Assembly (NCBI GenBank): GCA_946411215.1
Contig: CAMKDH010000006.1
Location: forward strand, 1-33,501
Direction of reading: 5' to 3'
Source: an uncultured Treponema sp.
GTDB taxonomy: Bacteria; Spirochaetota; Spirochaetia; Treponematales; Treponemataceae
Length of the DNA: 33,501 nt
The translations under genes were made by a program, and so were the position numbers. The notes below the pieces were generated by a model. It was not told the origin of the DNA. It searched no databases and worked only from the letters and a program-made list of their open reading frames with translations. This document shows positions 18,401-33,501 of the stretch, piece by piece. The stretch's first letter is position 1. Every line of letters starts with the position of its first letter.

Positions 18401-19060
18401 CCTGCTGAACTTTCAACTACACCACAAGTTCTTGATATTGCAGATTTTATTCCAGATGTACGCGATGCTCTTCCTGATCTTTTTGGTGATGAGCCACAAA
18501 CAGTTACATTTGAAAAAGAAGATCCAAGAGCCGCAAGAAGAGCTGGTCATAATTCTTCTAAAACAACACAGACAACTTCTAAGACTACTTCAACTGTTCC
18601 TGCATCAAAGACTACTACAACTACAACAACAACTACTACTACAAGTCCTTCAACATCAAATCCAATTAAGGGCGAATTAAAGATTGATGATATTCCATCT
18701 TTCACAGACTGGGTCCCAGAATTGGTAGAAGGTCTTAAAGATTTAGATAATAAGATAGATGAGGTTGTTTCAACAAATACAACCACTACAACCACTACAA
18801 CTAACAATTCAACTACTCAGAATAGTAGTTCAACAAGTGTTACCTCTGAAGCAAAAACAGAGGTAACTGAGCTTGTCAAAGGGGCTCAAGAAAAAACAAT
18901 CGAAGTGGTTGAGCCAGTAGAAACCACCCCAACCAACGAATCCCTCGCAAAAGAACACAAAAAATCTTTTGCACCAATATATGCCGGATTTGCAGTGCTT
19001 GCGGCAGCACTCACTGCTTTATTTATAGCCAAACGTAAAAAGGATAAGAAAGATGAGTAA
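15464..19060 (+). CDS. Predicted exported protein: barrel-like N-terminus, transglutaminase-like domain, TPR, low-complexity linker, C-terminal TM segment
   Basis: Signal peptide; GGDCDDLSIL (Cys), PGHIFMAF (His), VWVPLE (acidic); TPR-like repeats; Thr-rich tracts; C-terminal YAGFAVLAAALTALFIAKRKKDKKDE. Confidence 0.82.
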   Translation: MSGKQSKKIRKTRKISKKAVAGAAAAVLCAAPLAAEGGDFLVSLYPHFSFPVIKFDDSLSTGFGGGLKLTYRPTDYFGIFLQGDYKQFSFDTKQSIGSLSVFDGMVGAGYHLSFTDRLGLDIDGGVGFYSSNYSTGSGSQKNTVTLTGFNVGGSISVSYKIGPTISVYAAGGPQHYAYKNSKFLTTVDANPGVTFNITKAFSNKNNVSLGDQELKPVFPVFYSWYNDNSFGSVEICNEEDASITDVTVYFYQQQYMGQPRDCGKTAILKKGEKFTVDLKAFFNENMLNLNEKSDTLANIIVEYKYLGAKRTETFPMIVPVYGRNNMSWEDDRCASAFVSSKDPAAMWFAKYVTSIVREDIRSGVPQNFQYAMAVFEALDQFGINYVKDPTSAFEDNVGTASIDFLQFPYQTLMYRGGDCDDLSILTCSLLESIGIKTAFITIPGHIFMAFDSGLSVAEAKEYFDTLDNLIVNENKVWVPLEITLSDEGFNKAWHKGAWEWNTANRSGDAMIYPMEASWKIYKPVSVPGAAAKFTMPGDSAVAEGFSYIVDEFVLNQITPQIASYENLLAKAPTAQNYNDFGILYARYGLFELADEQFQKARTVNYLPSILNTANLCYSKKDYAQATSWYKKVLAVDSENNFAMLGLARCAYETGDYNECDKWYGIVYKNDRKLARQYSYLGAFESTSGRSFSLADRLENTVWLRSQDFDPALPEQIIQRIEPKVELAVASNVVLQTSEPVKEKTQIENPNASVAVVPDTVTEEEEKVEEEQTTSSGSGDGDNNDAVITENDIVTTENDSVLTEIDTVITENETVVSDTDTLAFDSNTVVSELVEEQEEDDAEEEYKGISSQLDFDFLSVQELAELAEEAIIENGETLDDFDTSIEMVSVREDKIVDTTFDPPLVTKAPENPPAPETPSSSEVDAAASVAAAVTVTGAATTGAAETAAGTLTGVTEAAVATVTATEATTAFYDTTPESSEPAELSTTPQVLDIADFIPDVRDALPDLFGDEPQTVTFEKEDPRAARRAGHNSSKTTQTTSKTTSTVPASKTTTTTTTTTTTSPSTSNPIKGELKIDDIPSFTDWVPELVEGLKDLDNKIDEVVSTNTTTTTTTTNNSTTQNSSSTSVTSEAKTEVTELVKGAQEKTIEVVEPVETTPTNESLAKEHKKSFAPIYAGFAVLAAALTALFIAKRKKDKKDE
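17819..17944 (+). repeat. Six tandem degenerate 21-bp (7-aa) repeats
   Basis: VITENDI/VTTENDS/VLTEIDT/VITENET/VVSDTDT/LAFDSNT in exact 21-nt register. Confidence 0.85.
18611..18643 (+). repeat. ACN triplet tract (11 Thr codons)
   Basis: actactacaactacaacaacaactactactaca. Confidence 0.9.
18779..18802 (+). repeat. ACN triplet tract (8 Thr codons)
   Basis: acaaccactacaaccactacaact. Confidence 0.9.
18867..18884. repeat. REP-like element inside the coding sequence
   Basis: CTGAGCTTGTCAAAGGGG, near match to the CTGAGCNTGTCGAAGGG-type core; encodes TELVKGA. Confidence 0.55.
18905..18927. repeat. REP-like palindrome inside the coding sequence
   Basis: GTGGTT-gagccagtaga-AACCAC; encodes VVEPVETT. 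Confidence 0.55.
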
Positions 19061-22000
19061 ATCAAACAAGAACGTATCAAAACTTTTATTTTCAGTTATT
19101 ATCACAGCAATTTTACTTCTTGCAGGTTCCTGCCAAAACTGGATGTCAAGTGATGACTTTATGTCCAAAATCGAAAACGAAGTTCACGATGCCAATGCAC
19201 CTGAAGTAAAGGTTTACGTGCGCTATGCAAACTCACCTGCTATGGGTACAACCGAACCTTCCGGTAATACTACTATGAAGGTAGATGTAGTTTCAAAAGT
19301 AACTGCCGTTACAAGCGATGACTACGGTTTTGTAAAATGGGCAGCTTTTTCTACAAGCGACTTTGCCACAAATAAAAACCATTCAAACCTTACATTCATC
19401 AGTCAGGAAGACTATGACAATAATATTAAAGACAAAGAGCTTACCTCCGAAGATATTGTTTTCTCTAATCCAACCGACCCGGTAACCGAAGTAAAAATCT
19501 TAAAACAAAGAGATGATATTTTCATTATTCCAATTGTCGCCGCCCGCCCAACTTATGTTCAGTCAGTTCCAGCTGGTGGTGACTATGGTGTTGTAAAAAA
19601 TACATCAATCCGAATCCTTTTCTCAAAGGCAATCGATAAATCTACTCTCTACGATTCAGAAGGCAATCTTAATTATTCCATTACTTCAAGTGCTGCCGTT
19701 CTTGTAGATGACAGTCAGGATATTGAAGCCAAAGATATCACAGATTACTTTGATGCAAATCTTAGTGAATCTGGTAAAATGCTTACACTCAAACTTAAGG
19801 TTGATGCTAAGGGTGAAATTGTACATCTTCTTGATAACCGTGCTCGAATTACAATAACACTTTTCGAAGGCTTGTGTGACCGAGATGGGTTCTCAATGAG
19901 TAAGAACTATTCCTTCAATTTCCAGACAGGTACTAACACCGATAGTCTTGCTCCAATGATTGAAGTTATCTTTGGTGGTACAGGCGAGAAGTGTGATGTA
20001 TTTGTTTCTTATCACAACGTTGATGAAGATGGAGTAGCAACAATCAACGGTGTTGCAACAGATGCCGCAAAGAAAGCTCCACAGGATATTAACAGTACAG
20101 AATATACAGATGCTCTTGTGGCACAGCGTATTTACGATAAATTAAATCTTTATATAAAAGCAACAGACGTTATTGCTTCTGGTAACGCAGATATCAACCC
20201 TGCAAAGGACTTGAACGAAGACAACGTTGCTTTTGTTGCAATTGCCGCAAGCCTTTATGTAGATAAGGATGGAAAACCTGTAGAAATTAATGAAACAAAT
20301 TCTATTGCTAAGGAAAACTTCGTTTACATTTCTGGTGAAATGGATTCTACATCTCAGATGACATCACTCTTTAATGATGTTGTTCCAAAAGATAAGGATG
20401 GAGTAAAATATACAGGTGGTTCTATTTATACATACGATGTAAGTAACCTTCCTGACGGTCTTATTAAGCTCGATATCTGGGGTATTGATATGACCGGTAA
20501 CAGTGGTGGTCCAAACGATGCCGGTTCTCCATATTACACAAAGCATGATAACGGATATAAGTCAATCTTTGTAGTAAAAGATACAACTGCTCCAGACAGT
20601 GCAACAGAATCTAAAAAGTTAAAGTCTAATTCTGCTGCAGCTCCATACTACTGGTACAACAGCGAAACCCTTTCAACAATGGAATTGTTCGACCTTGATA
20701 ATAATCAGATTGTAGACCGCGGCCACGCAAAACTCCGCTCTCTTGCAAAAAATCTTCAGTGGAATTTTGTAGTAGGAAAATCAACAGAAGCTCCTGCTGC
20801 TAGCGATGCCGGCTGGAAAAATATTCACAACGCAGAAACAGGTGCAAGTATTAAATACACTCTTGCCAGCGCCAAAGCTCCAGCTCAAGACGGTCCAATC
20901 GATATTACCCTTTACATCCGCGACGATTTAGGCAACGTTTCTGATCCAGTTCTTCTTAATTCGCTTATGTATGATAATACTAAGCCAACGGTAACTCTCT
21001 TAGACAACTATGGTGACTTTGTAAATGAAGATGGCGGAAAGGAACTTCACAGTTCAAAAGAAGCCGTAATTAATCAGATTCTTAAAGTTTCATTTACAGA
21101 ACCAAACGTAAACAATGCTGGTAGTGGTATTCGCCGCGTAGAAATTCACGTAAAGAAAGGTGATGCCGAAGTAGCAGTTCCTCTTGATTCAACTAAGTTC
21201 AAGGTTAAGTGGTCTGCTGCCGCAGATGCAACTCCAAAAACTGCAAGTGAAATTGCAATGGCTGCAGATGATACAGCAACAACAGATAAACTCAAAGTAT
21301 TCAATGTAAACGATTCTTCAAAAATCACAACTGGAACTCTCTTTATTTATGGTCTTACCCTTGGCGATGAAGACGGTGACTATACAGTAACAGTAGATCT
21401 TTTTGACTCTGCTATGAACAAAACAACCGCTTCTGCTAAAACAAAGATTTCACGCGATAAGACATCTCCTGTAATTAATTCTGTAAATGTTCAGGGTGCT
21501 CTTGTTCGTACAGTTTATGGTGACACCGCAGGAACAAAAACCTGGTGGATGCCAAAAGATAAATATGAATCTGGAAACCTTACAAAAGTTGTATTGAAGG
21601 TATCTGCTGTAGAAGCAGGTTCCGGACTCGAAGCAATTAAAGTTGGAAATGATGTAGAGTTTACATCAGCCACAATTCTTAAGAAGGGTGATACAGAACT
21701 TGTTAAGGGAACAGACTATAAGTTTGACGAAAGTGATCCAACTCACAAAATCGTATTGCTCAACAATTATGATGTTTTGCTTAAGGGAACTCCAATTGAG
21801 TTCACACTCGAAAATGTTAAGTTTAACACAATCAACAATGCTGCTGGTAATAAGATTAATGTTGAAGTTCAGGACTTTGTAGGAACAACTCCTGATTCTA
21901 ACCAGATTGGTGATACTGAAAATTATCAGATTACTTATCCTGATAATACAACAGGAACTCTTGTTTATGCAGATAACACTCCTCCTCAGATTAGTACTTT

Positions 22001-25000
22001 GCATGTAGAAGATACAATTCAGAAAAACGCTACAAACCCAGATCACGTAGCATATAATAAAGATGATTTTACAGATGATCAGATTGTAATTCTTACACTC
22101 AAACTCTATCCGGAAAATTCAAGCAATGGTAGTGGTGTAAAGATTGTTCACCTTTCAGATAACGCAGAATTTACATCATCAACTGCTATTTATGTTGATA
22201 TTAATACAACTCCACTTTCAAACAATGTTGATTATACAATTGCCGGAGATAACAAGTCGGTTGAATTTACAAAAGTATTTACAGGTGAAGAAACACTCAA
22301 ATTCACAAATGTTAAGATTATTTCTGAAGTTGACGGTAATCAGATTATTAAAGCAGATTTGACAGACTTTGTAGGACTTGAAACAACTGCAAGTACTGCT
22401 ACAAATACAATAATTTTGGATAAAGTTTCTCCAGTAGTTTCAAATAGAGCCTGGGTAACAACAGACTCAACAGTAACAACTGGTACCGCTGGTGAAATGA
22501 CAATTGATAATCAGTCACTCAAAATTGATTTCACAGAAAACACAGCTGGTGTTAAGGTAATTAAGTTTAATATTTATCATTCTTCAAATCCTTCTGTAGT
22601 ATTTGATAATCCTTTTGATGCTGTTGATTTCTATTATAATGACACCTTGCTTACAAAAGACACAGATTATACTATTGATACTTCAAACAAACAGTATATC
22701 ATTTTGACAACTCCAAGAAAGACTGGTTCTTTCATGTTTAAAAATGTAAAACTTACAAATACAAATACACAGGGTAATTACGTTATTGATGTTGTATTGC
22801 TTGATGCTGCTGAAAACCGTCCTGTAGATGATTGTAAAATTACAATTGCAATTGATAAGGATGCTCCTGTAATTAAAGATAAGCTTGATATTCCTAATTT
22901 GCTTCATGCCGTTGAATTGACGACAAACGGTGGCCAGAAAGTTATTGCCGATGATACTGACGGAAACGGTACATGGTGGCTTAAGAAAGATTATGTAGGT
23001 GCTGAAACAAATCAGGTTCCTGGTGCTATCCCTGTATATATCAAAGTAGAAGAAAAAGGTTCCGGAGTTAAGTTTATTACCCTTGGTGGTGATGCAACAA
23101 TTTCTGATTCTACAAAACTTCACAAAATCGCTTCAAATGGATCAACTACAGATCTTGTTGTAAATTCTGATTACACTGTTGTAAATAAAACAATTACAAT
23201 TATAAATTCTTTGAATGCATTTAGTGATGATTCCGACTTCCAGATTTATCTTGAAAATGTTGGCTTTGCAAACCTTGATTCAGGAACCGTATCTCAAAAT
23301 ACAATCACTGCAAAAGTAACTGATGTCGCTTTGCATGAATCTAATGTTATGGATCAGGATGAAAAGCATATCTATTCCGATAGCCAGCTCCCTTCAACTC
23401 CTGCAAACTTTAAACTCTTAGACCGTGCTTTTGATGCATCTGCTTCAACACCAACAATTGCCGCTTCCGAAGATTATACAAACGATTCAATTGTAGATAT
23501 GGAATTCGAACTTGATGATTCAGAACAGTTTGGTTCAGGTTATCATAAGTTTGAAATTACTGGTGCAACATTCCGAGACGATTCTGTTATAACAATGACA
23601 ACTCTTGATGGAACTCCGATTGTTTGTAATGGTCAGGCCGCTCTTACAAGAACATTGTCAGGCAGCAATAAAGTTCTTACTCTTAAATCAAGCGGTTCAA
23701 TTTCTTACAACTATGTAATCCGCCAGGCTGCAAAAGTAAAGATTACAAATGTTCAGTTAGACAATGCAGTTGATGGCCAACAAAGTACTGTAACTCTCAC
23801 CGCATACGATCTTGTTGGTAGAACAAATACAGCCGCCAGCGATTCAATCTGGTATGATGTTTCAAAACCAGAATTAGAAAAACTCTTTACTGCAAATTAT
23901 GTTCCTTCAAATGCAACATATTACCAGCCAAGCATCAATGTTTACCCACATGCAAACAGTGAGTTGGCAACAGGTGTATCTATTGATTATGGTACACAAG
24001 AAAGACAGAAGGGTATTCCAACATTCTATACTGCAACAACATATGAAACAGGAAAATCAATTTCAGCAGGAAAGGTTGTTACAGATTCTTATGGTGCCGT
24101 TCTTGGAGTTAGAGGTAAAGATAATGTTATGTTGTGTGGCTGGAGTAGAGCAAAGACATTTATCTACTATTATAAATACTCAGACACAGACACACCTTTC
24201 TCAAAATCAAAAACTGCTATCATTGAAAATAATAATAATCCTCTCGTAGATATTAACAATGCATGTAAACCTAACGGAAATAATACTGCACAGAGTACAT
24301 CTCTCTGGTTAGGCTTCTCTGAAGGAAAGTATTCTGCTGTAATCGTTGACGAAGCTGGTAACGTTAGTGAACCGTTCGATTTTGCAGTTGTGAAGGATAT
24401 TACAAAGCCTGCAAAAGAATGGGGCAGTGGAAACGACGCAGACAGCCTCAATGCCCGTGTACTTTTACAGAAACCAGATGCATCTGCAAACATATTTACA
24501 AATTCTGCTGTTTCTACAATCAGTACCTCTGACGGTTTCCCTAGATTCTGGGGATGCGGTAGTGATCAGGACACCATGAGTGCTAATAGCAGCATGAAAA
24601 CAAAAAAATATGTAACAAAGAAATCTAGTAATAAGTATAAGATTCAATTAAATCTTGGTGGAACAGTAAGTAATTCAACATTAAGTTCAAAAATTAATGG
24701 CGGTGCAGCAAGTGATGTAACTCCATACTCTGATCTTACACCAACAGATACTTCTTCTCCTATTGAAATGTATGCTGTTAGTACATTATATGGTTCATGG
24801 CCTGATGCTGATCATCCTTCATACAAATATTGTCCAGTTGTTCCTAGTGGAACATCATTCCCTAGTGGACAAACTTATTCAAATTCTAGTTCTATATGTA
24901 AAGATTACTTTGGATATACTAATGGTTTTAGCGACTATTGGTATATATACAATAGTTCTAGTGCTAACTGGCATCCTTATAAAACAAGTACAAGTAGTAA

Positions 25001-28000
25001 TACTGATTCTTACTCATACTCAAGCCTTTCAGTTTCAATTACTAGTTATGTAGATTCAAATAATAACCTTATAATCGAAATTCCAAATACTAAAAGTACA
25101 GTACCAATTTCCGTATTCTTAAAAGACGGTTGTGGTAATATGGAGTATGTTGTATGTGGTCTCTATAAGGAAAACGGTTATGATGTTGCCATAAGCTTTG
25201 TTATTGATGACAAGCTTGGTTCGGCCCCAACATCAGATGGTATTGTAACAACTCCTTTCATTATTCAGTTCCCATATTCTTATTACGATTCTACAAGTGA
25301 CGTTCAGTGGGGCGATTATAACTTCCATGTTGGAACTCAGGCTGGAAACTCAGAAGCTCCTTCAAGTCAGTATGGTACTGGAGCAAAGCGCGGATTTATA
25401 AAAGACTTTGTAAAACATGCAACTTATTATAACCCTGCTTTAACAGATACAGTTGAAGCAAGACAAATTAAACATTGTTTTGCTTTGCATTTCTTCCCAA
25501 ATGGTGTTGATAGAAATGAAGCATTAAATATTACAGGAAAAGAATCTATTACCTTTAGTGATGCGGATTGGACAGACACAGAAAAAGCAAAGGGTGTCAG
25601 AAAGGCAAGTGCAGAGGATATTTTAGCCGGTAACTACACCTGCCGTGCTTTGCTGTATTGTACTAATACTACCGATGTACCAACTTATGCCCAGATAAAA
25701 GCTTGCCACGATGAAGAAATGGCGGCTACAGCAGCTAATAAAACAGGTCAGGTTACAGACTGGTCTTATGTACAGGTTTCTTCTGCTGCAATCGAAGCAA
25801 TCCTTTTTGTAGACTATCCAAAGCCAAATTATACTAAGCTTAATTGGGATGTTAATGAAAATAATGGCGAACCAAAGCCATTCTATATGTGGTACATCTT
25901 TGAAGATGCCGTTGGTAACTACGAATTGGCAAAGGTTGTAAATGACGCCACAAGTGGAAACTATTTAAAGACAATAAATAGTTCTCATTTTGATAAATGG
26001 CTCTATGATGCTGAAGCTCCAAAACTTACTATCCGTGGTTCTAAGACAACAGAAAATCCTACTGGTACAAGTCCTGATACTATTACAGCAGCAAATATCA
26101 GTCAGTTAGTTCCGACAAACAATGGATTTGTTCCTTATGTAAATGGTAATAACATTTATGTGCATGCATCGAATACTCATACTTCATTACAAAGTGGAGC
26201 ATCACTTAATAATCCTTCAACACCTGGAATAACACAAACAGCAGATAATAATGCTTATTCAAAATATAATTCTTTTGTTGACTTAGAGGTTTCTGAGCGT
26301 ACTGGTGTTCGTATGTATGCATGGACTACTTCGGCAAATAGTACTTTTGATTATCCAACGAGTTCATCTAATTATGGATGGCGCGATTATTGGTTATCTT
26401 CATCGACTCCATATTGGTATGTTGGTTATGGAGGAATTTCCCCTGTTGATAAAGATATAGGTGATGGTTCGTATAATTATGATAATTGTCCTCAGAGTGC
26501 ATATTATTATGGAAATACAAATACTGCATATACTGGAGTTTATGCCGGTGTAAAGATTTGTACGACAATTCCTTATGGTAAACTTTCTACTTCTACTGCA
26601 ACCGAACTCTGGCTCCACGTAATGGACTGGACAGGTAATATTTCTCACTACAGAATGGGTGCGGAAGGTGTTAAGTTTATTAATGACTCAACAGCTCCAA
26701 CTTATTCTTCAAATGCATTCGATGGTATAACAGAACCAGATCAATATTATATTTCAAAAGCATCAAGTTCTAATCCTGTAGTCAGAATTGCCGGTAATGG
26801 TCCTACTGCAAAAGCGGGTTCTGACATTAAACTATATATTCCAAGAACTTGGATTGAAGAAGCAGGATCAGGTATCAAAGGTTATTCTTTCTCTAATACA
26901 GGTATAGCAAATGCAACCTATGATGAAAATGGTGATCCATATTTAAATCTTACATACAGCGATTATCATTACACTGATACAGATTCACATGAGAAGACAT
27001 TCTATGTATATGATAATGTAGGAAATATGTCTGAACGAAAAATCAATCTTGTCTTTGATGATAAGCCTCCAAAGATTACAACGGTTGCCTTTGTAACTAA
27101 GCTTGATTCTTCAGACCAGGGTAAATTCTGCGATGCCGACGGAGTTGCAGAACAAGATGGCTATGATGCATTTGGTTCTGTAAGATTCTATGACCATAAA
27201 GATAAGAATGATGATAATGAAGACATCAATTTGTATTATGATGATATAGATGGTATAAGTCATTTCAAAGATGGCGAAGTTCAGGAAATTTATATCAGTA
27301 AAGCGGGTGCTGTAAAATTCCAGGTTAATTTTGCTTCAGAAATCCTAACCGAAACTGATTATCTTGATGATATTAAGATTAACAGATGGAATACTACAAC
27401 AAGTAAATGGGAAACAGTAACTTCATGGAAATCAAACAATTCTGATTGGTGGGTAGGAGCTGCTGATACAGGTATCCGTGCAATGGGTACCTCAGATTCT
27501 ACCGGCTACAACACACTTACATATACAGCCACCGGTACCTACTACCAGATTCTCGCAACTGATATTTCCGGTAACGCAAACTGTCAGTACTTTAAGTTGT
27601 ATCTCGATAACCAGGGACCTGAATTAACCAAAGATGAACATGGGGCTACAATAAAACCTCAGGTTACAGTTGGAAAAGGTTCTATAAATACAGTTAGCGG
27701 TGTTACTTACTATACTGCTGGATCAACTGATGCAGAAGCTTTGAAAATTAATTTTGCAGTACAAGATGGTGGTCTTCCTGGACAAACACTCAAGTATAGT
27801 CTTGATGGAACTACTTGGGCTGATGTTCCGGCAAATGGACAAGTAGAATTACTGTTTGATTCTGATGCAACAGGCACTATCCAAGAAATTTATTTGAAAG
27901 ATATCTTTGAAAATCCGACCACATATACAGGTGGTTATGCTTATGCGGACAGAACTCTTTCAAGTCTTACAAAATATGCTGGCAGTGCCCCTGCTGCATT

Positions 28001-31000
28001 GACTATTACAACTGAAAAAAGTGGTGGTGTTAATGATACTATAAAGCAAATCAAAACTGCTAAAGTTGACAACAACGGAACTCCTTCCGACTGGCAGCAA
28101 AAATATACTCAGCTGTTGGCAAATAACCAGGTTCTTATATCAAATTCAAGTCGAAAGTTATTAAGAATAACTTTCAAAAAACCTTCAAGTAACGATATGA
28201 TAATGGGTTATATCAGATGTTATGGAAATGAGGAACCTAGTCAGACAAAGGAAACTTATAACTTTATGACTAAACCTACCAGCGATGTTACATTTGATGA
28301 AGGTTTACCATTTGAAACCTATCCAACAACTGTTAAGTATTATAAGGTTGACGTAGTTGGTAATATAAGCCCTGCGCTTACATTAACATATACCAATGAA
28401 AACCCTCATAAGGCAAAGGATATCACCTTAATTAAAACAATAGATGACGTTAAGACAAAGGACGGTGTTGTTGATTCGGATGTAGTATCTGCTATGAATA
28501 CAGCTGGTATTGTATTTGCGAAATATCTTGATGTCCCTGATACTGCCAAAAAATATAAGGATTATGAAAAAACAGGATTAAGATATTTCAACGGAGATTA
28601 TATTGTTTTACGTTGTACTTTACAGGCAAAAGCCGCTCCAGATATTACAGATGTAAATGATGATAATTATTATGCCGAAACACCTTCTTTAGTTGAATTG
28701 TGGGATATTTATTCTACTGGTAAAACAAAACGAGGTGAAGCTGATAAAACATCTGCAACTAACTTTAAAGTATTCCCTTCTTCATTAAAAGATGGTGAGC
28801 GTTTCTATTGTTATATTGCAATAAAGGATCCTGATTTCGATAACAATGATAGCAGTACTGATTATGGTGGAAGTGTAATCCATGCAATGATTAAAGGTTC
28901 CGATGCAGAGTCAACTCTCCAGGCATTGAATACATCCGATGTAGAAAAGTATGGATGGAAGATGGATAATGAAGCTCCGTTTATTCATAGTCATTATGCT
29001 GCAACTGTAGAAGGTCATAAAGTATTATATAATTATGCAATTAAAGATTCTGAAGGAACAGATTATACAGGTTCACAGCAAATAGCATACGATAATAATG
29101 GTGGTTCAAATCCTACCAACTTGTATTCTGCTGGTTCAAAGCTTTATTGTTATATTAATGTAACACTTAGTGGCACTAAAACAACCTGTATTAAAGATAA
29201 TTATACAAACTGGCAGCAGATGAAATATAAGTGGGTTATTACAGAAGGTTATAATGCAACTGCTTCTGCAGATGATACTGATTGGATAGATATGACTCCA
29301 GCTAATGCTAATTACGTTTATGAATTACCAGAAGTAAAATCACCTCATCAGCGTATTGCACTCTTCCTTATGGATAACCTTGGTAATATCACAGAACCTC
29401 ATTATATAGGAAAGTCCAATGTCGATGATACAAGTGTTCAGTATTGGCTTATAGACAGAAGTCCTGCTGCAGCCGATATTTCAATCAAGAAGAATACAGG
29501 AACAGAATCTGCTCCTGTATGGTCAGACCCTGAATATAGTGCCTCTGCACAAGAGTTTACAGTAAGCTTTGGTGATAACGGACCAGGTGTAGTTATTCAT
29601 TCTGTTACTGCAGAAAATGCAACAATTTCAAATGTAACATTTAATGATTACAATACACAGCCTGAATCTATTGCAAACCAGGCCTGGGTAAATGTTTCAA
29701 GCATTAAGGTAACTCTTACTCCATTTGAAAAAATATGGACTCCACAGCCTGTTACACTTAAGATTAATGGTGTTTCAAAAGATGTATTCGAAATTCCGGT
29801 AAGATCATTTACTTCAGATGATATCACATTAACAGATCAAACCTGGACTTCTGGCGATACTGTATACGTTCCAATTTCATTCCCAACTGGCGCAGGTGTT
29901 GGAAAGATTACAAGTTATACGGCAAATAATGACGTAACTGTTACTTTGGATACATCAGAAGCTGATAATCCAAGATTTAAATTAACAAGTCTCCCTTCAC
30001 AGGGCTGGAGCGATACGGTTATTAACATAACTATTAATGGAAGCATCGAAAAGAAAGCACTTACAATTCCTGCAAAGGCTCTTGGAAGTGGTGATATTAC
30101 TGTTGCTACTGCAGATTATGACGGAACTAAAACAAGTTATGATTTGGCAATAACTTTGAATAATAATGCTCCTGCCAGTGCATTAACAAAGATTACTGCA
30201 GATAACGAAGTTTCTGCACAGTTAAGTAATGATAAGACAAAAGTTACTCTTTCAAATATTCCTGCAAAGGGATGGACTGAAAAGAAAATTAAGCTCACAG
30301 CAAACGATACAATTGATCTTGGAATTGTTTTGACTGTTCCTGTAAAGGCTCTTGCTGCTACAGATATTGTAAGCATAGGTGATGCTGTAACTGAAAACAA
30401 TACAACAACTGTAACAATCAATTTGAAAGAAGGAGTTCCAGATTCTGCTCTTGAAACTGCAGGTGTAACCGTAACTCCAAGTTCAGTTCATGCAAATTTG
30501 GCAGGTCATGTAGTTACCTTAACTGATATTCCAGATGCTGGATGGGATGAGCAGAAGATTAAACTCACTGTTGGTTCTGATCTTATGTCTAAGGATGTTT
30601 TGACAATTGCTCCTAAGAATCTTGCCGCTACAGATATTGCAAGCATAGGTGATGCTGTAACTGAAAACAATACAACAACTGTAACAATCAATTTGAAAGA
30701 AGGAGTTCCAGAATCAGCTCTTTCTAGAGCAGGTGTAAGTGCAGACCACAATGTATCAACCAGCCTTTCAGGTACCACAGTTACTTTGAGTAATTTCCCA
30801 GCTGCTACATGGACTGCACAGGATATTACACTCACTATTGGTAGCAGTCTTGCCTCTCATGTAGTTTATACAGTTCCTGCTAAGACTTATGATTCTAATT
30901 GTATTACGATAGATCTTAAATCAAATACTTGGCCTGCAGATGGTAACTGGAGTCAGGCTACAATAGAAGTAACTTCAGAACTTCCAATTGATAATATAGA

Positions 31001-31736
31001 GACAACAAATGCTGATATGTTTACTGTTACAGTAAACAATAAGTGGAATGACGATAAGACTGCTTCTGTAAATCTTGCAAAAGCTACAGGTGATAATGCT
31101 GTAACTCCAACAGAAGCTGGTATTGTCATCAAAGTTATAACAAAAAGTAGCGCTTCTGCAAACAAAGGGGTTTATAAAGAGATATCAAGCAATCCAAACC
31201 GCTTCTTCGGTCGCTTAATTTCTGGCAAAGGTGATCAGGATGTTTACACCTTCGGTGATTCACCAAAGACAGCAGGTGCTTTGCAGACTCATGTTGTTGA
31301 AGTTCCAAAGTTCATCCAGAAGTTCTGGCAGAACGATGAAACTGCTGCAGACGAAGTTGCATCAACTGTAACTAAAGAAGCTAAGAAAGCAGAAAAGAAA
31401 TCTTCAAAGAAGTCTACCAAGAAAGCTGCTAAGAAAGCAGTCGAAACTGTAACAGAAACAGCTGCCGCTATTGCAGTTACAGAGCTTCCATCAGAACTTC
31501 TTGAAGAACCTGTTGCCGACGATCAGCTTGCAATGATTCTTCCTAAGACTGCAAATACTGAAGAAGTTGTAGAAGTTGAAGCAACACTCCAGACTGCTCC
31601 GCCAGAAACTGTAATGCCTGCCGAAGATACTTCTTCAGAAAAGCATTCTTCTGCCGCAATTTGGGTTGTGCTCATTGCTGTGTTGGCTTCTGTTTGTGGA
31701 TTGAGATTTATTAAGAGACGTAAGGTTTCTGCATAG
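19053..31736 (+). CDS. Giant repeat lipoprotein (4227 aa) with C-terminal TM segment and basic tail
   Basis: Uninterrupted 12.7-kb ORF overlapping the upstream gene by 8 nt; lipobox-like LAGSC; N-terminal similarity to the 1294-aa lipoprotein; many D(K/N)xxPxI Ig-like modules; about 90-aa C-terminal repeats; terminal IWVVLIAVLASVCGLRFIKRRKVSA. Confidence 0.92.
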   Translation: MSKSNKNVSKLLFSVIITAILLLAGSCQNWMSSDDFMSKIENEVHDANAPEVKVYVRYANSPAMGTTEPSGNTTMKVDVVSKVTAVTSDDYGFVKWAAFSTSDFATNKNHSNLTFISQEDYDNNIKDKELTSEDIVFSNPTDPVTEVKILKQRDDIFIIPIVAARPTYVQSVPAGGDYGVVKNTSIRILFSKAIDKSTLYDSEGNLNYSITSSAAVLVDDSQDIEAKDITDYFDANLSESGKMLTLKLKVDAKGEIVHLLDNRARITITLFEGLCDRDGFSMSKNYSFNFQTGTNTDSLAPMIEVIFGGTGEKCDVFVSYHNVDEDGVATINGVATDAAKKAPQDINSTEYTDALVAQRIYDKLNLYIKATDVIASGNADINPAKDLNEDNVAFVAIAASLYVDKDGKPVEINETNSIAKENFVYISGEMDSTSQMTSLFNDVVPKDKDGVKYTGGSIYTYDVSNLPDGLIKLDIWGIDMTGNSGGPNDAGSPYYTKHDNGYKSIFVVKDTTAPDSATESKKLKSNSAAAPYYWYNSETLSTMELFDLDNNQIVDRGHAKLRSLAKNLQWNFVVGKSTEAPAASDAGWKNIHNAETGASIKYTLASAKAPAQDGPIDITLYIRDDLGNVSDPVLLNSLMYDNTKPTVTLLDNYGDFVNEDGGKELHSSKEAVINQILKVSFTEPNVNNAGSGIRRVEIHVKKGDAEVAVPLDSTKFKVKWSAAADATPKTASEIAMAADDTATTDKLKVFNVNDSSKITTGTLFIYGLTLGDEDGDYTVTVDLFDSAMNKTTASAKTKISRDKTSPVINSVNVQGALVRTVYGDTAGTKTWWMPKDKYESGNLTKVVLKVSAVEAGSGLEAIKVGNDVEFTSATILKKGDTELVKGTDYKFDESDPTHKIVLLNNYDVLLKGTPIEFTLENVKFNTINNAAGNKINVEVQDFVGTTPDSNQIGDTENYQITYPDNTTGTLVYADNTPPQISTLHVEDTIQKNATNPDHVAYNKDDFTDDQIVILTLKLYPENSSNGSGVKIVHLSDNAEFTSSTAIYVDINTTPLSNNVDYTIAGDNKSVEFTKVFTGEETLKFTNVKIISEVDGNQIIKADLTDFVGLETTASTATNTIILDKVSPVVSNRAWVTTDSTVTTGTAGEMTIDNQSLKIDFTENTAGVKVIKFNIYHSSNPSVVFDNPFDAVDFYYNDTLLTKDTDYTIDTSNKQYIILTTPRKTGSFMFKNVKLTNTNTQGNYVIDVVLLDAAENRPVDDCKITIAIDKDAPVIKDKLDIPNLLHAVELTTNGGQKVIADDTDGNGTWWLKKDYVGAETNQVPGAIPVYIKVEEKGSGVKFITLGGDATISDSTKLHKIASNGSTTDLVVNSDYTVVNKTITIINSLNAFSDDSDFQIYLENVGFANLDSGTVSQNTITAKVTDVALHESNVMDQDEKHIYSDSQLPSTPANFKLLDRAFDASASTPTIAASEDYTNDSIVDMEFELDDSEQFGSGYHKFEITGATFRDDSVITMTTLDGTPIVCNGQAALTRTLSGSNKVLTLKSSGSISYNYVIRQAAKVKITNVQLDNAVDGQQSTVTLTAYDLVGRTNTAASDSIWYDVSKPELEKLFTANYVPSNATYYQPSINVYPHANSELATGVSIDYGTQERQKGIPTFYTATTYETGKSISAGKVVTDSYGAVLGVRGKDNVMLCGWSRAKTFIYYYKYSDTDTPFSKSKTAIIENNNNPLVDINNACKPNGNNTAQSTSLWLGFSEGKYSAVIVDEAGNVSEPFDFAVVKDITKPAKEWGSGNDADSLNARVLLQKPDASANIFTNSAVSTISTSDGFPRFWGCGSDQDTMSANSSMKTKKYVTKKSSNKYKIQLNLGGTVSNSTLSSKINGGAASDVTPYSDLTPTDTSSPIEMYAVSTLYGSWPDADHPSYKYCPVVPSGTSFPSGQTYSNSSSICKDYFGYTNGFSDYWYIYNSSSANWHPYKTSTSSNTDSYSYSSLSVSITSYVDSNNNLIIEIPNTKSTVPISVFLKDGCGNMEYVVCGLYKENGYDVAISFVIDDKLGSAPTSDGIVTTPFIIQFPYSYYDSTSDVQWGDYNFHVGTQAGNSEAPSSQYGTGAKRGFIKDFVKHATYYNPALTDTVEARQIKHCFALHFFPNGVDRNEALNITGKESITFSDADWTDTEKAKGVRKASAEDILAGNYTCRALLYCTNTTDVPTYAQIKACHDEEMAATAANKTGQVTDWSYVQVSSAAIEAILFVDYPKPNYTKLNWDVNENNGEPKPFYMWYIFEDAVGNYELAKVVNDATSGNYLKTINSSHFDKWLYDAEAPKLTIRGSKTTENPTGTSPDTITAANISQLVPTNNGFVPYVNGNNIYVHASNTHTSLQSGASLNNPSTPGITQTADNNAYSKYNSFVDLEVSERTGVRMYAWTTSANSTFDYPTSSSNYGWRDYWLSSSTPYWYVGYGGISPVDKDIGDGSYNYDNCPQSAYYYGNTNTAYTGVYAGVKICTTIPYGKLSTSTATELWLHVMDWTGNISHYRMGAEGVKFINDSTAPTYSSNAFDGITEPDQYYISKASSSNPVVRIAGNGPTAKAGSDIKLYIPRTWIEEAGSGIKGYSFSNTGIANATYDENGDPYLNLTYSDYHYTDTDSHEKTFYVYDNVGNMSERKINLVFDDKPPKITTVAFVTKLDSSDQGKFCDADGVAEQDGYDAFGSVRFYDHKDKNDDNEDINLYYDDIDGISHFKDGEVQEIYISKAGAVKFQVNFASEILTETDYLDDIKINRWNTTTSKWETVTSWKSNNSDWWVGAADTGIRAMGTSDSTGYNTLTYTATGTYYQILATDISGNANCQYFKLYLDNQGPELTKDEHGATIKPQVTVGKGSINTVSGVTYYTAGSTDAEALKINFAVQDGGLPGQTLKYSLDGTTWADVPANGQVELLFDSDATGTIQEIYLKDIFENPTTYTGGYAYADRTLSSLTKYAGSAPAALTITTEKSGGVNDTIKQIKTAKVDNNGTPSDWQQKYTQLLANNQVLISNSSRKLLRITFKKPSSNDMIMGYIRCYGNEEPSQTKETYNFMTKPTSDVTFDEGLPFETYPTTVKYYKVDVVGNISPALTLTYTNENPHKAKDITLIKTIDDVKTKDGVVDSDVVSAMNTAGIVFAKYLDVPDTAKKYKDYEKTGLRYFNGDYIVLRCTLQAKAAPDITDVNDDNYYAETPSLVELWDIYSTGKTKRGEADKTSATNFKVFPSSLKDGERFYCYIAIKDPDFDNNDSSTDYGGSVIHAMIKGSDAESTLQALNTSDVEKYGWKMDNEAPFIHSHYAATVEGHKVLYNYAIKDSEGTDYTGSQQIAYDNNGGSNPTNLYSAGSKLYCYINVTLSGTKTTCIKDNYTNWQQMKYKWVITEGYNATASADDTDWIDMTPANANYVYELPEVKSPHQRIALFLMDNLGNITEPHYIGKSNVDDTSVQYWLIDRSPAAADISIKKNTGTESAPVWSDPEYSASAQEFTVSFGDNGPGVVIHSVTAENATISNVTFNDYNTQPESIANQAWVNVSSIKVTLTPFEKIWTPQPVTLKINGVSKDVFEIPVRSFTSDDITLTDQTWTSGDTVYVPISFPTGAGVGKITSYTANNDVTVTLDTSEADNPRFKLTSLPSQGWSDTVINITINGSIEKKALTIPAKALGSGDITVATADYDGTKTSYDLAITLNNNAPASALTKITADNEVSAQLSNDKTKVTLSNIPAKGWTEKKIKLTANDTIDLGIVLTVPVKALAATDIVSIGDAVTENNTTTVTINLKEGVPDSALETAGVTVTPSSVHANLAGHVVTLTDIPDAGWDEQKIKLTVGSDLMSKDVLTIAPKNLAATDIASIGDAVTENNTTTVTINLKEGVPESALSRAGVSADHNVSTSLSGTTVTLSNFPAATWTAQDITLTIGSSLASHVVYTVPAKTYDSNCITIDLKSNTWPADGNWSQATIEVTSELPIDNIETTNADMFTVTVNNKWNDDKTASVNLAKATGDNAVTPTEAGIVIKVITKSSASANKGVYKEISSNPNRFFGRLISGKGDQDVYTFGDSPKTAGALQTHVVEVPKFIQKFWQNDETAADEVASTVTKEAKKAEKKSSKKSTKKAAKKAVETVTETAAAIAVTELPSELLEEPVADDQLAMILPKTANTEEVVEVEATLQTAPPETVMPAEDTSSEKHSSAAIWVVLIAVLASVCGLRFIKRRKVSA
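29814..30893 (+). repeat. Four tandem modules of 91, 90, 90 and 89 aa in the giant lipoprotein
   Basis: Modules begin SDDITL (29814), SGDITV (30087), ATDIVS (30357), ATDIAS (30627). Conserved (L/V)(P/S)xxGW...I.(I/L)T(I/V) core; next unit starts at 30894 (SNCITI). Confidence 0.85.
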
Positions 31737-31743
31737 AAATTGA

Positions 31744-31811
31744 ATTACCTGATAGGTAATATAATATTTGACATTAAAATTGTCTTGTATTATAATTACC
31801 TAAAAGGTAAT
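31744..31811 (+). promoter_or_regulatory. TA promoter flanked by two 17-bp palindromic operators
   Basis: ATTACCT-GAT-AGGTAAT (31744-31760), TTGACA (31768-31773), 17-nt spacer, TATAAT (31791-31796), ATTACCT-AAA-AGGTAAT (31795-31811). Confidence 0.9.
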
Positions 31812-31814
31812 TTA

Positions 31815-32183
31815 ATGGAATTGCAATACATAAATAAATCAATTCAAGAATATTTCTCAGATTTATGCGATGTTGCCAATTCTAAAAATTTACTTCAAAA
31901 AAAGATTGGTCAAATACTTGCGAAAAATTCCAAAAGAAGAATAGATCATCTTAAAATTACACAGACGTTTCAAAAGTATCTGGACTTTCATATTGGTAAT
32001 CCACATAGTCTTACAGGTTCCCTGTCAGGATTTTATGGTGTGGATTTAGATTCTCACACAAGATTAATAATTCAACCAATTCCTCCGGATTTGTCTTCCG
32101 AAGCATTAAAAATCTGTGAAAAGGTAATGATTATTGGAATTGTAGATTATCATGGAGATAAAAATGAGTGGCTTATCGCGTGA
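31815..32183 (+). CDS. HigB-like (RelE/ParE-fold) toxin
   Basis: About 122 aa; ends ALKICEKVMIIGIVDYHGDKNEWLIA; immediately followed by a HigA-type gene. The ORF-track start at 31740 lies within the operator/promoter region, so MELQY at 31815 is preferred. Confidence 0.75.
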   Translation: MELQYINKSIQEYFSDLCDVANSKNLLQKKIGQILAKNSKRRIDHLKITQTFQKYLDFHIGNPHSLTGSLSGFYGVDLDSHTRLIIQPIPPDLSSEALKICEKVMIIGIVDYHGDKNEWLIA

Positions 32184-33261
32184 AATGATTATACATCCTG
32201 GCGAAACGTTAAGAGAAGTTTTGGTCGAAAGAGATATGTCTCAGCAAGAGCTTGCACTTCGAACAGGGATGACTCCAAAACACATAAGTACAGTTCTTAA
32301 TGGTGAAAAAAATATTTCTGTAAGTTTTGCAAAAAAACTTGAATATGCATTATCAATTGATGCGGAATTTTGGATTGGATTGCAAGCTTTATACGATAGA
32401 GAACTGTTGGATTTCAATGAGCTACATTCCATATCACAAGAAGAAATAAATATTTTTAAATCAATGAAAGAAGCTTTTTGTTTCATTGTAGATAATGCTT
32501 TTATTCCTGTTATCAAACAGACAGAACAGAATATTTTAGAATTACGAAAATACTTAAATGTATGTAATTTGGCCTGTATTCCTTCATTAATTTCTTCGGG
32601 GGCTTTTAGAGCACAAACAAAATCAGAGTGTAATCCTTATATTCTTTTTGCATGGCAAAGAATATGCGAATCATTGGCTGAAAATATTACCACTCCTATT
32701 CTTTCCTATGAAGAGCAATGTAAAAATCTTATCTCAATCTGTCCAAAAATAAAAGAGTTATCATTGTTATCACAAGAAAAATTCATTCCAAAGCTTCGTG
32801 AATATTTTTCATTATGTGGAATCTCATTTGTGCTTGCACCTTCATTTAAAGGGGCTCCTGTGCAGGGATTTATAAAAACGAATCCTGATGGAAAAACTAT
32901 AATAAGTCTTACATTTCGTCAAAAAAGAGCTGATGTTTTTTGGTTTACAATATTCCACGAAATTGCTCATTTCATTAACGGAGATTCAAAACAAAAGTTT
33001 CTAGATTTTGAATCAGTTGAAAATAATAAAGAAATAAAAGCTGATTATTTTGCTCAAAATGCTTTAATTGATAAAAATTCATATGAAGATTTCATCAAGT
33101 CAAATAATTTTTCATTGAATTCAATAAATACGTTTGCCAAGAGTCAGAAAATTTTACCTGCTATTCTTATAGGCCGCTTGCAAAAAGAAAAGTATCTTAA
33201 ATGGTCAGAATATTCAGAGCAACTTGAAAAGTATGAAAATATTTATAATTTCGTGAAATAA
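32164..33261 (+). CDS. HigA-type XRE antitoxin fused to an ImmA/IrrE-like domain
   Basis: MIIHPGETLREVLVERDMSQQELALRTGMTPKHISTVLNGEKNISVSFAKKLEYAL (HTH) plus FWFTIFHEIAHFINGDSKQ (HEXXH). GGAGA SD 5-6 nt before ATG 32164; ATG 32152 is the alternative start. Confidence 0.9.
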   Translation: MSGLSREMIIHPGETLREVLVERDMSQQELALRTGMTPKHISTVLNGEKNISVSFAKKLEYALSIDAEFWIGLQALYDRELLDFNELHSISQEEINIFKSMKEAFCFIVDNAFIPVIKQTEQNILELRKYLNVCNLACIPSLISSGAFRAQTKSECNPYILFAWQRICESLAENITTPILSYEEQCKNLISICPKIKELSLLSQEKFIPKLREYFSLCGISFVLAPSFKGAPVQGFIKTNPDGKTIISLTFRQKRADVFWFTIFHEIAHFINGDSKQKFLDFESVENNKEIKADYFAQNALIDKNSYEDFIKSNNFSLNSINTFAKSQKILPAILIGRLQKEKYLKWSEYSEQLEKYENIYNFVK

Positions 33262-33265
33262 TTTT

Positions 33266-33501
33266 TTATTCTGTCCAATCCTCAAGCATCAAATTAAACT
33301 CATCTGAAAAAATCTTAAAATCTTTTGTGTTGTTGGTAACTAAAATCAGGTTGTTGGCAATTGCAATTGAAGCGATTTGGGTGTCTAGAATTGGGGTAGG
33401 TTTTCCCTGAGGCAGGAGGCGGCTTGTTATGTCGCCATTTATTGTTGCGGCGTGGATGTCGTAGGGGATTACGGGAAAGGCGGGTTGTACATAATCAATC
33501 A
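33266..33501 (-). CDS. VapC-like PIN-domain protein, C-terminal fragment truncated by the window edge
   Basis: Minus-strand translation IDYVQPAFPVIPYDIHAATINGDITSRLLPQGKPTPILDTQIASIAIANNLILVTNNTKDFKIFSDEFNLMLEDWTE*; LD.QIASIAIANNLILVTNNTKDF is typical of VapC. Confidence 0.85.
   Translation of the reverse strand, partial: IDYVQPAFPVIPYDIHAATINGDITSRLLPQGKPTPILDTQIASIAIANNLILVTNNTKDFKIFSDEFNLMLEDWTE

Follow-up and report, generated by a model that had tools for sequence, protein, structure and literature searches.

What controls the two-gene module near the end of this Treponema contig, and are the two palindromes in front of it operators for one of the module's own products? The first-pass annotation had described twin identical palindromes around a consensus promoter, and we found both, together with the gene starts, exactly where it had placed them. 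Within the window, by which we mean the whole stretch of 33,501 nucleotides analysed here, the putative operator O1 (ATTACCTGATAGGTAAT; 31744-31760) has its core, TTACC-N5-GGTAA, at 31745-31759 and its centre at 31752 (about -51 relative to the predicted transcription start), and the putative operator O2 (ATTACCTAAAAGGTAAT; 31795-31811) is centred at 31803; neither site has a strand. The ATTACCT-N3-AGGTAAT arms of O1 and O2 are identical at 14/14 bases, and the two centres are 51 bp apart.

The promoter, the leader and the two genes

A promoter search located a plus-strand sigma-70 promoter, TTGACA-N17-TATAAT, between the palindromes. It agrees with the consensus at 12/12 bases, with a 17-bp spacer between the -35 (31768-31773) and the -10 (31791-31796), and no other part of the window matches exactly (0.49 expected at ≤1 mismatch); TTGACA or TTGACG is kept as the -35 in six clade relatives. 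Eight base pairs separate the end of the O1 core from the -35. O2 takes in the final two bases of the -10 and the expected transcription start (~31803, placed 7 bp after the -10), and these positions bear out the earlier proposal that O2 covers both elements. The leader that would result, AAAGGTAATTTA (31803-31814, plus strand), is predicted to be about 12 nt, in agreement with the very short leader anticipated by the annotation. The right arm of O2 contributes AAAGGT (31803-31808) just 5′ of the ATG at 31815, with 7 nt between AGG and ATG. Its proposed role as a Shine-Dalgarno sequence holds in the Treponema clade, which has AAAGG, but not as a family trait, since it is absent in Clostridial loci. 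ATG 31815 is taken as the right start because the ORFs of relatives begin at the equivalent ATG; a TTG-started 147-aa version of the first ORF (in-frame extension to 31740) is not conserved in relatives and was ruled out. A mirrored minus-strand promoter over O1 (AAGACA-N17-TATATT, 9/12) was rejected as being at chance level, with 7 such sites found and 8.3 expected. The spacer between O1 and O2 (31760-31794) has extra dyad symmetry (11/14; shuffle fraction 0.01), and this candidate, a large dyad or RNA hairpin, was rejected because the dyad is missing in relatives.

Scanning the window for the O1/O2 palindrome with up to 3 mismatches gave 4 matches (2.0 expected), and only O1 and O2, both exact, had fewer than 3. 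The core TTACC-N5-GGTAA occurs twice in the 2.52-Mb assembly (75% complete), at O1 and O2, and a reversed control pattern also occurs twice. The genome-wide count of cores is therefore at chance level, but their clustering within 66 bp around a 12/12 promoter is not. The genome search suggested by the annotation showed no further copy of the 17-mer at 0 or 1 mismatch in the same assembly. A regulon reading was ruled out by the absence of further core sites in the genome.

The first gene (31815-32183, plus strand) encodes a HigB-like protein of 122 aa with a RelE/HigB (BECR) fold. The window protein alone had no match to a Pfam or PADLOC family. A profile of 28 HigB-like relatives finds Proteus vulgaris HigB (4mct; E = 1.2e-11), PF05015 is matched by 8 of the 28, and the AlphaFold model (pLDDT 92) matches YoeB and HigB with a TM of ~0.7 by target length. 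His64 is invariant in a 24-sequence alignment and a C-terminal Asp-Tyr-His is widely kept, residues that appear to fit HigB chemistry; toxicity by mRNA cleavage is putative.

The second gene, higA-M78 (32164-33261, plus strand), overlaps the first by 20 bp, as it does in the Treponema clade. Its 365-aa product combines an N-terminal Xre/HigA helix-turn-helix (HTH) domain with a C-terminal M78 (ImmA/IrrE-type) metallopeptidase. HigA-M78 scores 53.3 bits with TIGR02607 (cut-off 47.7) and is the only protein found with this model in the genome; it also matches Pfam HTH_3 and Peptidase_M78. In a fold search the HTH domain matched HigA structures best, DNA-bound ones among them, and the nearest solved structure to the peptidase part is CapP. 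The HExxH zinc-peptidase motif, here HEIAH (residues 265-269; 32956-32970, plus strand), is found in every full-length relative examined. The best match of the protein is PADLOC PD-Lambda-2_B (residues 18-354; E = 7.8e-38). The earlier term HigBA-type is thus appropriate for the HigB fold and the HigA HTH but needs a qualifier: since the HigA protein carries a C-terminal M78 peptidase, the module is PD-lambda-2 AB-like and not plain HigBA. The labels toxin and antitoxin are assumed for this module.

Operator recurrence and the recognition helix

We compared the upstream DNA (130 bp 5′ of the HigB-like start) of 37 related modules, the window's included. TTACC-N5-GGTAA was present at ≤1 mismatch in 24/37 loci and exactly in 15/37, compared to 0.24 and 0.01 expected from shuffles, respectively. 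The motif-bearing loci belong to Spirochaetota, Clostridia, candidate phylum WS6, rhizobia and cyanobacteria, and the identity of their HigA proteins to that of the window goes down to 25-30%. In the alignment of the window clade, 32 columns are invariant in the 72 bp before the start versus 3 between -200 and -100. Many relatives have a single recognisable site near the start. The source genomes are mostly metagenome-assembled, and the automatic choice of start sites causes some of the apparent variation among loci. In the Treponema locus L012 (2878-3918), the HigB-like gene is internally deleted, its first ~40 codons running in frame into HigA-M78, and the HigA C-terminus is shortened too; both operators and the promoter are intact.

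The predicted recognition helix of the window's HigA-M78, TPKHISTVL (codons 37-45; 32272-32298, plus strand), contains Lys39 (32278-32280), and by alignment its positions match the base-contacting residues of Pseudomonas aeruginosa HigA (PMC6987408). In the 37-locus set, Lys39 was present in 24/24 motif-bearing loci compared to 3/13 loci without a good site. The association was first seen in this set and then checked in others. A second set comprised 62 non-redundant loci from other searches that had not been used to define the Lys39 rule; here a site was found in 35/51 Lys39 loci and in 1/11 others (one of these 11, L165, having been read on the wrong strand), with 0.37 expected in total. A third small set, which included L165 and minus-strand matches, agreed with the rule. 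When the loci were pooled and each HigA identity cluster was given one representative, a procedure that removes shared ancestry only partly, a site accompanied Lys39 in 54/73 clusters versus 1/20 others at <90% identity (p = 2e-8), 32/47 versus 1/18 at <60% (p = 4e-6), and 14/23 versus 0/12 at <45% (p = 6e-4). The motif was not found with five short HigA proteins that lack Lys39. Lys39 is not sufficient, as about a quarter of the Lys39 loci have no recognisable site; none was recognisable in the three KPEKTI-helix loci tested (L130, L158 and L160).

Other helices are accompanied by other half-sites. TTACC goes with the Lys helices, QAIN helices have TCACC...GGTGA in 3/3 cases, and TAACC...GGTTA accompanies several further helices; both arms therefore mostly change together. 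These pairings suggest a correlation in which the base at position 2 of the half-site changes with the recognition helix. Given the recurrence of the sites across phyla, their covariation with the helix, the absence of other sites in the genome and the retention of the operators in L012, HigA-M78 is the likely binder of O1 and O2. The first three of these also lend support to the annotation's proposal of autorepression, with the HigA-type protein acting at both palindromes.

Operator geometry and the proposed mode of repression

In two clades, the Treponema and the Firmicutes-type, a TTGACA-N17-TATAAT-like promoter has one of the twin operators on either side. Of the 22 twin loci compared, about 20 have a gap of 7-9 bp between the O1 core and the -35; for the window and L012 (8 bp each) the gap was read by hand. 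On the 3′ side, the distance from the -10 to O2 is 6-7 bp for Treponema-clade loci and 12-13 bp for those of the Firmicutes type. O1 and O2 are 50-51 bp apart in Treponema-clade loci (47 bp in L013), 56-57 bp in the Firmicutes-type clade, 65 bp in L034 and 29 bp in L063; in helical turns, 51 bp correspond to ~4.9, 47 bp to ~4.5 and 56-57 bp to ~5.4. O1 is thus apparently positioned relative to the polymerase and not to O2.

The best explanation overall, which we hold to be highly probable, is that O1 and O2 would be the operators of the module's own HigA-M78 and serve autorepression by occluding the promoter from both sides. A dimer of HigA-M78, alone or with the HigB-like protein, would use its N-terminal recognition helix, and prominently Lys39, to read TTACC-N5-GGTAA. 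Occupation of O2 would cover the -10 and the start site and so block RNA polymerase, and occupation of O1, 7-9 bp 5′ of the -35, would block the upstream edge of the polymerase footprint. With both sites occupied, a very strong promoter would be almost silent, and the operon would fire again when free HigA-M78 drops. The 20-bp gene overlap may couple the translation of both proteins. More speculatively, repression could be lifted when the M78 domain becomes active, for example on phage infection, much as in PprI/DdrO or CapP/CapH. From sequence we infer that HigA-M78 binds and represses, and likewise the stoichiometry, the coupling of translation and what each protein does.

An alternative, which we regard as unlikely, is a two-step response in place of plain double occlusion, with O2 as the repressing site and O1 (about -51) as a site of low occupancy that activates or modulates. 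Such an arrangement would be consistent with the placement of O1 by the -35 and not by O2, and also with the Firmicutes-type loci, where O1 more often has a GGTTA arm and O2 has both consensus arms, a difference that suggests unequal affinity of the two sites. Against it, both sites of the window are perfect, and a promoter that already matches the consensus makes an activator unnecessary.

Looped repression, in which HigA-M78 at O1 and at O2 would be joined over five helical turns and trap the promoter in a small loop, is in our judgement quite unlikely. The identical sites of the window, ~4.9 turns apart, and the similar spacing in most of its clade would favour a loop, but the wider spacings of the Firmicutes-type loci and L034, the shorter ones of L013 and L063, and the many relatives with a single recognisable site would not. 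Since spacing and helical phase vary while the O1-to-35 gap is near-constant, a loop is unsupported as a family feature, and so is any significance of the five helical turns mentioned in the annotation: across 47-57 bp the phases differ, and it is the O1-to-35 gap that is conserved instead. Independent occlusion at both polymerase edges appears to fit better than a loop; each site would exclude one edge, and looping would not be required.

Under control at the RNA level, read-through transcripts would carry the palindromes as hairpins that hide the Shine-Dalgarno sequence of the first gene. O2 RNA is predicted to form a 7-bp hairpin (-4.5 kcal/mol) that contains AGG, the folding energy of the full stretch from O1 to O2 is -34.8 kcal/mol (z = -7.4), and the upstream gene ends 7 bp from O1 with no terminator-like site found between them. 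We nevertheless judge this reading improbable: the promoter's predicted transcript starts inside O2, so the hairpin cannot form; relatives do not share the spacer dyad; Clostridial loci have no Shine-Dalgarno overlap; and the covariation with the HigA helix points to recognition of DNA by a protein. That an unrelated host regulator binds the palindromes and controls the module is highly improbable, because the sites recur with the module across phyla and vary with its own recognition helix, and the genome has no further copies of the core.

Comparison with known systems and genomic neighbourhood

One of the closest known systems is PD-lambda-2, an E. coli anti-phage system (PMC9519451), which likewise has a HigB-like first gene and a HigA-HTH/peptidase fusion as the second. 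The HigB-like protein encoded upstream in the window resembles component A by fold and profile, and no PADLOC model matches the A-like protein. PD-lambda-2 differs in that its defence requires a further component, C, which is a relative of a P4 phage antitoxin. No third co-directional gene of this kind lies in the 240 bp from higA to the contig end, and none is directly downstream in L008, L010, L011 or L013. In PD-lambda-2, the HigA-peptidase protein is toxic when expressed alone and the HigB-like protein rescues (PMC9519451). Similarity searches of E. coli genomes for the PD-lambda-2 locus returned an XRE-peptidase gene beside thymidylate synthase, without an annotated HigB-like gene before it, or nothing.

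The HigBA systems of P. vulgaris Rts1 and P. aeruginosa and the HigA3 system of Mycobacterium tuberculosis share the toxin-first order, the HigB fold and the HigA HTH, but their antitoxins lack the M78 domain that the window's HigA has, and their operators have other sequences. P. aeruginosa HigBA has two identical palindromes (PMC6987408), although its operator, TTAACGTTAA, differs in sequence and its sites lie together within 28 bp and not around the promoter. HigA3 of M. tuberculosis binds -10-box DNA with part of the palindrome TATAACCTAGAGGTTATA (PMC7340258). The layout itself is that of kis-kid (parD of R1), with a perfect palindrome on the -10 and another 5′ of the -35 (reviewed in PMC4803016); kis-kid differs in antitoxin fold and operator sequence, and its Kis-Kid complexes change with the toxin ratio. 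MqsRA is also toxin-first, and MqsA reads AACCT-N3-AGGTT (PMC4894380), which has the ACCT-N3-AGGT core in common with O1 and O2. MqsA, however, has an N-terminal zinc domain and a C-terminal HTH and regulates other genes, whereas the window core has no other site in the genome. PprI(IrrE)-DdrO and CapP-CapH likewise pair an M78 peptidase with an Xre repressor, and in the former, repression ends when PprI cleaves DdrO (PMC10904395). In contrast, peptidase and repressor form one polypeptide in the window, beside a HigB-like protein, and cleavage here is speculative. A short canonical HigBA module on an E. coli IncY plasmid (L172, 520-598) has a pair of palindromes of its own (GTTTC-N7-GAAAC, spaced 29 bp) in front of the toxin gene, the twin layout with a different sequence.

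HigBA autoregulation, the kis-kid-like two-site layout and PD-lambda-2-like proteins are thus already known in kind, and autorepression is ordinary. What is new is the putative operator shared across the family and the way in which it correlates with the recognition helix; we found neither described in the literature searched. Among the little-characterised Xre-peptidase fusions encoded beside HigB-like genes, one is a phage defence system that was discovered by experiment. From a shared operator that follows the helix one can predict, for each locus, which protein binds, where the promoter lies and which start codon is correct, and intact modules are easier to recognise; protease-triggered derepression also becomes testable with a simple reporter. 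It is conceivable, though we consider it doubtful, that HigB/HigA-M78 modules are protease-gated defence switches that cross phyla, in which one polypeptide would read a family-specific operator, its half-sites (TTACC, TAACC or TCACC) being set by the recognition helix, shut a consensus promoter from both sides and, on activation of its metallopeptidase, destroy its own repressor function and free the operon at once.

Downstream of higA, four Treponema-type relatives have convergent defence-type genes: a candidate pair that PADLOC lists as PDC-M02 (L008), an AbiL-like ATPase (L010), a Septu-like PtuA/HNH pair (L011, which on its other side has an AAA ATPase closely resembling the one in L010) and a type I restriction R subunit (L013). 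These neighbours make a defence role plausible, although the searches showed no PD-lambda-2C gene. On a Leptospira plasmid (L065), a Pantoea plasmid (L167) and an E. coli chromosome (L169), HigA-M78 is followed by a convergent uncharacterised gene and thymidylate synthase, and no HigB-like gene is annotated directly upstream of it in L167 and L169. In the human-gut phage NatCom_34192 (L061, 3968-5023), a HigA-M78-like gene without an annotated HigB-like partner lies between the terminase and the portal genes. In the window itself, the contig end cuts a minus-strand gene (33266-33499), convergent with higA, that encodes the C-terminal part of a VapC-like PIN toxin (NF047863; E = 1.9e-13). Directly 5′ of O1, a plus-strand ORF of 4227 aa (19053-31736) has a lipoprotein-like start (LLLAGSC), repeated modules and, at its C-terminus, a membrane segment with a KRR tail that is preceded by ILPKTAN.
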